From a bacterium (GTDB taxonomy: Bacteria > Myxococcota_A > UBA9160 > UBA6930), in assembly GCA_024228115.1 (NCBI GenBank), contig JAAETT010000291.1, positions 1 to 36,277 on the forward strand: DNA of 36,277 nt, in the 5' to 3' direction. The notes beneath the pieces are model-generated. The model did no database searches. It saw only the letters and a list, made by a program, of their open reading frames with translations, and had not been told where the DNA came from. Positions 7,576 through 10,420 of this stretch are shown in pieces. The first letter of the stretch is position 1. Every line of letters starts with the position of its first letter. Both the position numbers and the translations under genes were made by a program.

Positions 7576-8364
7576 TCAACTTGCGACCAACCCCTCCACA
7601 TCCGCCCACACCGCCTTGCCTTGCGCTTGAAAGGCATCGACGACGGGCTGAGGGACGAAAGCCGCAACGGCCTCCTGGTACGACGCTCGTTCCTTGATTC
7701 GCGTGAACCACGCAGCTGCGCGAGGGTGCGCGTCGATGAACGGTGTCATGGCAAGATGGTCGAGGCGGAGCACATAGGGCAGGACGCAAGCGTCGGCCAG
7801 ACTGAACGCGTCGCCGGCCAGGAAGGCCTGATCGGCGAGAGCGATCTCCATCGCATCGAGCATGGCGACGAAAGCAGCCAGGGCGCCCTTCATCTCCGGC
7901 GCTTTCACACCGTGGTCGATCACAGAACGACGAGCGGCCCGGCGCGCCGGGTCCGGAATGGCCTGTACCCCCGCCTCGATCTCTTCCGGCGTCTTCTGCA
8001 GGATGACGGGTCGGGTCCCGATGGCGAATGTGATCACACCGGCGCTGGGATGCACTTGCCCATCGATTCGCTTCGTCCAGAGCCGCATCGCGTGACGCTC
8101 CAGCGCATCTGCCGGCGCGCAGGGCGGCTCAGGAAACGCATCCTCCAGGTACTCGTTGATCAGGGTCGATTCGACCAGCGCCCGACCATCGTGCACGAGG
8201 GTTGGCACGACGTGGCCCGGATTCAACTTCACGTAGGCCTCGGCATGCTGGTCCCCGGCCATCAGATCCAGCATATGGGACTCATACGGGAGGCCCTTCT
8301 CAGCGAGAACGAGCCGCACCTTCTGAGAGCAGCTGGAGAGGAAATGATGATAGAGCTCGAGCAT
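7576..8364 (-). CDS. Glutathione S-transferase family protein (GST B)
   Basis: A 262-aa GST, slightly longer than usual. The N-terminal thioredoxin fold begins MLELYHHFLSSCSQKVRL, with Ser/Cys at 10-12 in the active-site position. It continues through NPGHVVPTLVHDG (about 48-60, cis-Pro) and LVESTLI (about 63-69, Glu-Ser glutathione site). The C-terminal helical domain contains GDAFSLADACVLPY (about 193-206), the conserved Ser/Asp N-cap. The start ATG 8364 has AAGGAGG five bases upstream, deciding against the longer open frame. It appears to be the first gene of the five-gene minus-strand run. The inverted-repeat element at 8443-8617 lies 79 bp upstream of its start. Having two different GSTs in one run suggests two glutathione-dependent steps or redundancy. 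Confidence 0.9.
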   Translation of the reverse strand: MLELYHHFLSSCSQKVRLVLAEKGLPYESHMLDLMAGDQHAEAYVKLNPGHVVPTLVHDGRALVESTLINEYLEDAFPEPPCAPADALERHAMRLWTKRIDGQVHPSAGVITFAIGTRPVILQKTPEEIEAGVQAIPDPARRAARRSVIDHGVKAPEMKGALAAFVAMLDAMEIALADQAFLAGDAFSLADACVLPYVLRLDHLAMTPFIDAHPRAAAWFTRIKERASYQEAVAAFVPQPVVDAFQAQGKAVWADVEGLVAS

Positions 8365-8710
8365 GGGGCCTCCTTGCCTGGCGCGGAAAGAGAGTAGTGC
8401 GGACCGGTCTGGGCCGCTTCGCTCCTCTTGCATGGATTGGAGTCGCCGGGGCTGGGCACAGGCCGGGCGGAATGGCTCGGCCGGGATCGGATGACCGCGT
8501 AGAAAGATGGACGGGGTGTTGCCTTTCGCGGCTTCGCCGCAGGGCAACCTACGCGCACGCTGAACCGCACCTATGCCTGCGCTTTATTTCCGCCCGGCCT
8601 GTGCCCAGCCCCGGCGAAGCGGTTCCGGTTGCCAACGCGGCCGATCGCGGGTGGGGGCGGTCAGCGCGGAAACTACGCGCAGGCATCTCGGCTGTTGGGT
8701 GGGTGGGGAT
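8365..8710. other. 346-bp non-coding region rich in inverted repeats
   Basis: No convincing gene lies between the GST start (8364) and the sulfatase-like stop (8711). The region holds the 30-bp perfect inverted repeat (8443-8472/8588-8617). It also holds an internal hairpin at 8518-8548 (GTTGCCTT/AGGGCAAC outer stem, GCGGC-TTC-GCCGC inner stem), a 10-bp inverted pair ATGCCTGCGC 8573-8582 with GCGCAGGCAT 8677-8686, and a 9-bp direct repeat CTACGCGCA at 8549 and 8673. The promoter of the downstream five-gene run should also be here, but I could not identify it. Confidence 0.6.
8443..8617. repeat. 175-bp element with 30-bp perfect terminal inverted repeats
   Basis: Bases 8443-8472 and 8588-8617 are exact reverse complements over 30 positions (key core GGGCACAGGCC / GGCCTGTGCCC), separated by 115 bp that itself folds into a hairpin at 8518-8548. 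Complementarity stops abruptly at both edges (8442 against 8618 and 8473 against 8587 do not pair). No clear target-site duplication is seen and there is no ORF inside. The structure fits a miniature inverted-repeat element or a long structured RNA; which one is open. Confidence 0.75.
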
Positions 8711-10420
8711 TCAACGGCGTTCGGGTGTGCAGTGCACCTGCTTGTCAGCATCGGCGCCCTGCACTTCGAAACCGCGGCCTTCTGCGTCGCATTCGATGGC
8801 CGCGGCCAGGGCCGTTCCTGCGCGGTGGCGTAGGCGTTCCCAGGGTTGCTTGGCGGGTCCTTCGTCGAAGAAGGGTGCCTGAGCGTAGCCCCAGGTCCGA
8901 TCGAGCAGCGTGATCCGGCGCCAGCGTTGGAGTGCAGCGAGCAGATCGCCCTTCGCCAGCGCCTCCCATTGCGCCTTCTCATGATTGTCTGCGCCAGGAA
9001 GCACCAACTCGGCCGTGTGACGGAGGTTCTCGGCATCCCATGCCTCGCGAGCGCGTTCGAGTTCTCGAAACTCCCCGGGTTTGTCGGCGTAGAGATCCTC
9101 GCGTTCTTCGGGATCGGCGAACAGGTCGAATCCCTCGCGGCGCGCAGGCCGGTCGGCCTCCTCCGGCCACCAGACGAGTTTCCGGTCCAGGCTTCGCACG
9201 GCGACGACGCGTCGCTGCATCTCGTGCCTGGGCGTGGTCCAGCCTTTGCGGGTGGTTTGCAGAAAGACGAACTCGCGTACCTGCTTCGCTCGGCCGTCGG
9301 TCAGCGGAGCAAGGCTCTTCCCTTGCATGGCCGGCAGCATGGCCCCCGATGGAATGCCCAGCCACTCGAAGAGTGTCGGCATCAGATCCACTCCCTGCAC
9401 CAGGGCCGTGCTCCGCCCAGCGTGCGGGGAGTCTCCGCGGAGCATTTCCGGCACCCGAATGACGAGGGGGATGCGCACGAGTTCGTCAGTGAGTTTTCCG
9501 TCGTAGGCGGTCGACGCATGGCCAACCCAGCCGTGCTCGAACAACTCTTCTCCGTGGTCTGCCGATACGATGACCAGTGTCTGCTCCAGCAACCCGGTTT
9601 CGCGAAGCGCGTTGAATGCACGTCCCAGATGGTCGTCCGCGTCGCGCACCGTCTCGTCGTAGAGCGCGCGAATCGCCTCGGCATCGCCAGGCACGAACGC
9701 GACCTCGCCCGGGTGGGTGAAACGCAGCTCGGGAATAGGAGGGCGCAGCACGAAATGGTGATTGTGGACCGCGTCGAATCCGGGCGTCGACGGCGGGGAC
9801 TTCAAGAAGCGCCCCGCGTTGCGTGCCGACGGCCGATAGGGGAGATGGGGCTCCTTGCTATGCAGCCAGGCAAAGAAGGGCTTTCCGGGCTCCTGTTCTG
9901 CCCGCTCTCGAACGAACGTCTCGAAATCCAGTTTGCCCAATTCTTCTTCGAACCCCAGGCCGCCATAGGTCGCCCCGCGGCCACTGCGCCCGAGTACCTC
10001 ATAGCCTTGATCCGCAAGGACGCGCAGCGGAGACGCTAGTTCGTCGTCGTAGACGCTATGTCGTCCGTTCTGCCCGTGCACCGGCGGGTAGTAGCCGGTC
10101 AGCATCGAGACGATCCCTGGGCTGGTCCAGGCCGACGTGGCAAAGGCGTTCTCGAAGACCCACGCCTCCCTCGCGAAGGCCTCGAGCTGGGGTGTCGTGG
10201 AACGAGCATGTCCGTATAGCGACATGTGATCCGGACGAAGGCAATCGATGGTGAGCAGCAGGACGTTAGGCTTCGGCGGCACCGGCTCGGAGTGCACGGG
10301 CTCGGCGTGCGCCCGCATCGAGAGCACCAGCAGGACGAGGAGCAGCAGGTGACTTCGCATGGACGAAAAGGTAGTCAGCCACCGCTTCGGGGGACAGGAG
10401 CCGCAGGGAAACGACATCAT
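8711..10420 (-). CDS. Secreted sulfatase-superfamily hydrolase/transferase (non-formylglycine type)
   Basis: A 569-aa alkaline-phosphatase-superfamily protein of the sulfatase family. It opens TIDCLRPDHMSLYG (about 57-70, first metal Asp) and contains SADHGEELFEHGWVGHAS (the late metal Asp/His pair). Its nucleophile region reads AWTSPGIVSMLTG (97-109). Against the C/S-x-P-x-R signature this gives Thr99-Ser-Pro and no Arg, so formylglycine maturation is unlikely and Thr99 may be the nucleophile. A hydrophobic stretch LLLLVLLVLS followed by RAHA indicates export. The start is taken as 10420, where ATGA overlaps the upstream phosphotransferase stop; ATG 10360 would give a more classical signal peptide and is a real alternative. 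The C-terminal ~100 residues are family-typical sulfatase tail plus an unassigned extension. Substrate could be a sulfate, phosphate or phosphonate ester. Confidence 0.85.
   Translation of the reverse strand: MMSFPCGSCPPKRWLTTFSSMRSHLLLLVLLVLSMRAHAEPVHSEPVPPKPNVLLLTIDCLRPDHMSLYGHARSTTPQLEAFAREAWVFENAFATSAWTSPGIVSMLTGYYPPVHGQNGRHSVYDDELASPLRVLADQGYEVLGRSGRGATYGGLGFEEELGKLDFETFVRERAEQEPGKPFFAWLHSKEPHLPYRPSARNAGRFLKSPPSTPGFDAVHNHHFVLRPPIPELRFTHPGEVAFVPGDAEAIRALYDETVRDADDHLGRAFNALRETGLLEQTLVIVSADHGEELFEHGWVGHASTAYDGKLTDELVRIPLVIRVPEMLRGDSPHAGRSTALVQGVDLMPTLFEWLGIPSGAMLPAMQGKSLAPLTDGRAKQVREFVFLQTTRKGWTTPRHEMQRRVVAVRSLDRKLVWWPEEADRPARREGFDLFADPEEREDLYADKPGEFRELERAREAWDAENLRHTAELVLPGADNHEKAQWEALAKGDLLAALQRWRRITLLDRTWGYAQAPFFDEGPAKQPWERLRHRAGTALAAAIECDAEGRGFEVQGADADKQVHCTPERR

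Follow-up and report, generated by a model that had tools for sequence, protein, structure and literature searches.

A dispersed hairpin element with a freely changing stem and an almost invariant internal loop behind genes of an order of Myxococcota_A

The perfect 30-bp inverted repeat in the 36,277-nt stretch of DNA analysed here (the window) is unit A of a dispersed element of about 430 bp, which consists of two inverted hairpin units, A(+)B(-). Each unit is a near-perfect stem of 22-37 bp with a lineage-specific sequence around an asymmetric internal loop, GAATGGCTCG...CTGCGCTTTATTTC. We give slightly better than an even chance to the view that the repeat in the window belongs to a dispersed, non-autonomous family of mobile DNA hairpins with a mode of action like that of REP/REPIN. 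The family is previously undescribed. Comparison with 4227 Rfam families gave no match at gathering or relaxed thresholds, and a literature search on the core sequences returned chance primer matches alone among the matches listed.

The inverted repeat of the original prediction proved to be real. Its arms at 8443-8472 and 8588-8617 are complementary at 30/30 positions across a spacer of 115 nt, the inner hairpin at 8518-8548 lies inside it, and the first arm is 79 bp from the start codon of the glutathione S-transferase (GST) gene at 8364 on the minus strand. The arm sequence occurs at just these two sites in the window, with 0 occurrences expected from 100 shuffles. Folding of the strand over the repeat region yielded z = -6.1 relative to shuffles. 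As to the extent, the arms lie where they were claimed, but the element is larger and reaches from about 8412 to 8705. Its parts and flanks are as follows.

8412-8705, no strand assigned: window copy, a complete unit A and a truncated unit B, delimited by alignment with copies L002-L020, the ortholog in the sister species G003 and a match of covariance model R1 at 8441-8620
8413-8422, plus strand: outer terminal repeat GCCGCTTCGC, common to the copies
8443-8472, plus strand: unit A stem arm 1, from arm complementarity
8588-8617, plus strand: unit A stem arm 2, from arm complementarity
8470-8479, plus strand: 5' half of the invariant internal loop, GAATGGCTCG, kept across the order
8577-8590, plus strand: 3' half of the invariant internal loop, CTGCGCTTTATTTC, kept across the order
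8497-8502, plus strand: GCGTAG, which pairs with CTACGC at 8549-8554 as the genus-level apical helix
8518-8548, plus strand: apical hairpin, lineage-variable and, in certain units, only a few nt long
8614-8622, plus strand: inner copy of the terminal repeat, GCGAAGCGG, from the copy alignment
8623-8705, minus strand: inverted remnant of unit B, with its first arm GCGGTCAGCGCGGAA at 8657-8671 and the remainder deleted
7576-8364, minus strand: GST gene (Pfam GST_N/GST_C), downstream flank of the element
8711-10420, minus strand: sulfatase gene (Pfam PF00884), its stop codon abutting the element at a distance of about 6 bp

Aligned copies define a full element of 425-435 bp with the ends GCCGCTTCGCTTCTC...GAGAAGCGAAGCGGC and with terminal inverted repeats, GCCGCTTCGC...GCGAAGCGGC. 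A search of the window's assembly (G000; 6.4 Mb in 700 contigs) with positions 8420-8710 detected about 20 copies of substantial length along with several half copies; the identity of about 20 further copies elsewhere in the genome to the window element was 77-91%. The conserved 16-mer GAATGGCTCGGCYGGG had 32 exact matches, and 40 matches with at most one mismatch compared to 2 for the reversed control pattern. Taken together there are about 25-30 copies in G000 and more than 45 in G003, numbers that are lower bounds because all assemblies are fragmented and the candidates per genome were limited in the genome searches. Genomes G001 and G004 of the genus contain a few copies each. G002 carries a separate, uniform subfamily with a mean identity of 96% versus 89% among the G000 copies. 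Many of its copies are located at contig ends, and the subfamily was amplified recently.

None of the fetched copies, which stem from fragmented assemblies, was a gene-bearing (autonomous) version, and no coding ORF was assigned to the element. Two candidates for such a version were rejected: the unit pairs of L305 and L371, spaced by about 1.2 kb, enclose a secreted-type protein and no recognised transposase, and L307 encloses an unassigned ORF, likewise no recognised transposase. In L305 (1447-2929) and L371, which belong to two sister genomes, two inverted units stand around the gene of the secreted-type protein; the enclosed proteins are 68% identical versus 95% for the product of the neighbouring gene. 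Copies L016, L018 and L191 are single units that join the left arm of A to the right arm of B; their stems pair poorly, and they look like products of recombination between the A and B halves of a dyad. Furthermore, L013, L015, L017 and L192 have in common an extra module of about 150-170 bp between or after the units.

The stem evolves freely while the loop is frozen. Stem length was 22-37 bp in 51/52 units with a median of 29 bp, and the apex measured between a few nt and about 120 nt. Among 50 genus units, the asymmetric internal loop is formed by the almost invariant bases GAATGGCTCG and CTGCGCTTTATTTC on its two sides. Covarying substitutions, which the original prediction had named as a sign of a structured RNA, were found both in the genus, where 17/20 stem pairs had changed on both sides with a covariation score reached by 0/500 shuffles, and order-wide, where 17/17 outer stem pairs covaried with at most four standard pair types and about 1% of the pairs were G.U. 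The core was present in 30/30 inspected distant units with at most a few changes; their stems were unrelated in sequence, yet still about 95% paired. In nearly all copies the arms are highly complementary despite sequence change. Thus for the perfect arms, selection on structure or hairpin-templated correction is the right family of explanations, as the arms stay paired while their sequence changes. Units frequently come as inverted dyads, a plus unit followed by a minus unit, and these had the same relative orientation in several families.

Stem mismatches in the genus were strongly biased: in unit orientation we counted 101 A.C versus 9 G.T, or 34 versus 7 distinct types. The opposite strand would therefore carry G.U pairs. 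This bias of the genus was not seen order-wide. It can be due to selection on RNA or to a C-to-T bias on an exposed strand.

The reach of the family was determined with two covariance models, R1 built from genus units and R2 from distant units. R1 identified units in 33/80 genomes of the order. R2 identified units in 39/379 genomes sampled across the phylum, 39/39 of them inside the order and none among the sampled genomes outside it. The union of both models was 40/80 order genomes with units. Because the antisense strand of a palindrome also scores with the models, at up to 49 bits, distant matches were accepted solely after inspection of the core sequence. Exact-pattern scans of 84,980 genomes plus viral contigs gave matches outside the genus that, where checked, mostly looked coding and had no stem; these scans missed distant relatives which the covariance models recovered.

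Comparison of orthologous sites showed that the element comes and goes, with sites occupied in G003 and empty in G004 or G002. In a search for joined flanks, 10/10 other G000 loci were occupied in G003. For at least three loci, base-by-base inspection established uninterrupted flanks, i.e. empty sites, in G004 or G002. At the window locus itself G003 retains the flanks of the element and lacks the centre of the palindrome and the B part; either the hairpin was lost later or it was collapsed by the assembler. Since this remnant occupies the same locus in the sister species, the window insertion is older than the species split, and the recent origin that had been suggested for the window copy is wrong. 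A target-site duplication was not found at 10 loci, where the longest word common to both flanks averaged 2.8 nt versus 3.4 nt for mismatched flanks. The proposed miniature mobile element is thus supported in broad terms by the multiple copies and the empty sites in relatives; with neither a target-site duplication nor a linked DDE transposase, the label of a classical MITE is not established.

The genomic context was assigned by a simple codon-usage gene caller. The copies were located in 12 convergent and 9 tandem gaps in G000 and in 22 convergent and 8 tandem gaps in G003, and divergent gaps were absent from both, i.e. 0/51 classified loci of the genus. Other families occupied 15 convergent, 18 tandem and 2 divergent gaps, the latter being one locus in two sister genomes. 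Order-wide the nearest stop codon was mostly less than 60 nt from the unit. In tandem gaps single units had either orientation with respect to the upstream gene (10 versus 5). A T-run directly after the stem was absent in 50/52 units and present in 2/52.

We favor the view of a mobile DNA hairpin that acts as a folded strand. The element would have spread while one strand was folded, as in replication, and a putative trans-acting enzyme or binding protein would recognise the internal loop within the hairpin. The stem would need only to pair, so that its sequence could drift by compensatory change with the loop frozen, and hairpin-templated correction perhaps aids the pairing. Insertions may survive mainly 3' of genes, where they would do the least harm. 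We infer single-stranded DNA to be the active form and a mobilising enzyme the partner. Sites that are empty in G004 and G002 but occupied elsewhere in the genus argue for spreading; the occurrence in either orientation to the upstream gene together with about 1% G.U pairs order-wide argues for folded DNA rather than RNA. Further support comes from the multiple copies in G000 and its sister species, the uniform G002 subfamily, the stem covariation, the core shared by the distant units, the equally oriented dyads of several families and the restriction to one order. On the other hand, several results speak against the mobile DNA hairpin. No mobilising enzyme was found, there is no target-site duplication, and a 3'-end function would likewise place the copies almost exclusively at gene 3' ends. 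With 10/10 tested G000 loci occupied in G003, the comparison of the two closest species yielded no insertion that separates them. Finally, pure DNA neutrality does not predict the strand-biased mismatches of the genus.

The latter are the best argument for a 3'-end RNA element, i.e. a bidirectional terminator, an mRNA stabiliser or a protein-binding RNA, because the wobble bias agrees with pairing in an RNA of the strand opposite to the unit orientation. In such an arrangement the dyad would give each convergent transcript one unit in active orientation, with an RNA-binding protein on the loop. The position of the units, mostly 0-60 nt behind stop codons order-wide and without divergent gaps in G003 and G000, and the strong stem covariation also suit an RNA. 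Yet single units lie behind genes in both orientations, G.U pairs are almost missing order-wide, 50/52 units have no T-run after the stem, and copy-number bursts with empty sites are the behaviour of mobile elements, so that we regard a 3'-end RNA as rather unlikely. The order-wide conserved core, the free stem and the occurrence in both orientations would also suit binding sites of a cruciform-recognising protein for chromosome organisation or repair, which would have spread as sites of the host and not as a selfish element. The uneven copy number between sister species, the burst-like subfamilies and the failure to find units in about half of the order's genomes make this improbable. A leader RNA of the GST-PhyH operon, one of the two forms in which the original prediction had cast the repeat, finds no support, as the element stands behind many unrelated genes, mostly between convergent ones; the dispersed multi-copy family likewise refutes a local inverted duplication. 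Although the feature adjoins the operon and folds strongly, the chance of either is very slight.

We considered separately whether the element is a REP/REPIN moved by a Y1 transposase (RAYT, IS200/IS605-like) of its own cell. It resembles group 2 REPs (PMC8266576, PMC3116915) in its inverted doublets, its extragenic position and a stem irregularity with a conserved mismatch, and Y1/RAYT genes were present in 5/5 genomes of the genus. REPINs are inverted doublets with compensatory changes (PMC3116915), and for E. coli TnpA-REP at the REP bulge it is unpairedness that matters, not sequence (PMC8266576). The internal loop of our element may be recognised in a similar way to the mismatch bulge that TnpA-REP reads in the REPs of E. 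coli. However, among 80 genomes 18 had both element and RAYT, 22 the element only, 15 RAYT only and 25 neither (Fisher p = 0.65), and G052 had 17 units and no RAYT match. The flanks of about 1.5 kb of 69 Y1/RAYT loci contained 0 units. GTAG or GTGG occurred within 12 nt of the stem in 4/52 units on the reverse strand and 7/52 on the forward strand, i.e. there is no GTAG foot, and one RAYT type of the genus has a different palindrome of its own. As far as tested, the Y1/RAYT family is not the partner, and mobilisation of the element by it is quite improbable. Because the GTAG foot and the RAYT link both fail, we state that the element works like REP/REPIN and not that it is one.

The RAYT gene with its own palindrome (296 aa; G000 and its ortholog in G003) is flanked by the perfect palindrome TTTCCGATGTTTCCGTTACGGCCTTGGCAGGC... 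(L076 1366-1408 and 2349-2385; L089 at the same positions). The TTTCCGATGTTTCCGTTACGGCCTTGGCAGGC palindrome has also been inserted into L019, a copy of the hairpin element; here a distinct REP/RAYT system is nested within the element. In addition, G000 contains a RAYT-like gene family (L077-L081) of about 9 copies in repeats of about 1.0-1.15 kb, 84-89% identical among those compared; their imperfect inverted ends of about 200 bp are unrelated in sequence to the hairpin element.

A more general proposal, which we put forward only tentatively, is an order-specific hairpin class, mobile or functional, defined by an asymmetric loop between two freely evolving helices and read in the folded state by a protein other than Y1/RAYT. 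If true, the class would be a novel mobile element system guided by structure, or else a novel 3'-end RNA of order-wide reach. The family as such would offer a clean natural example of recognition by shape, in which the stem is swapped completely between genera yet paired and 24 loop bases are fixed. This allows direct tests for the factor that reads the loop, and the covariance models supply a marker family with which 3' ends and genome rearrangements can be annotated in this little-studied order. Should the partner be a new enzyme, it would extend the short list of systems known to work on single-stranded DNA in folded form.

The element shares properties with several known systems. Like MITEs (ERIC/RU-1 and other small dispersed enterobacterial repeats) it is non-coding, non-autonomous and intergenic with terminal inverted sequences and long hairpins; unlike in those, no target-site duplication was found, its arms change wholesale between lineages around an invariant internal core, and it is spread order-wide. 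Bidirectional intrinsic terminators are likewise GC-rich hairpins between convergent genes, but the element has no T-tract, has a conserved asymmetric internal loop and is dispersed in multiple copies. With REP/REPIN (group 2, E. coli) it has in common the extragenic, dispersed and multi-copy occurrence in inverted doublets, an unpaired irregularity that is conserved within the stem, compensatory change where the strands pair and the lack of a target duplication. It differs from REPs of 20-40 nt by units of 80-210 nt with a free-sequence stem of 22-37 bp outside the conserved loop, by tens and not hundreds of copies, and by having neither a GTAG foot nor a RAYT association. Integron attC sites act as a folded single strand with extrahelical features, a free stem sequence and a variable terminal structure, directly behind stop codons. 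The hairpin element resembles them in all of these features, the extrahelical ones included, and does not occur in cassette arrays. While attC has its conserved bases at the base of the hairpin, those of the element are internal, with the free outer stem on one side and the free apex on the other.
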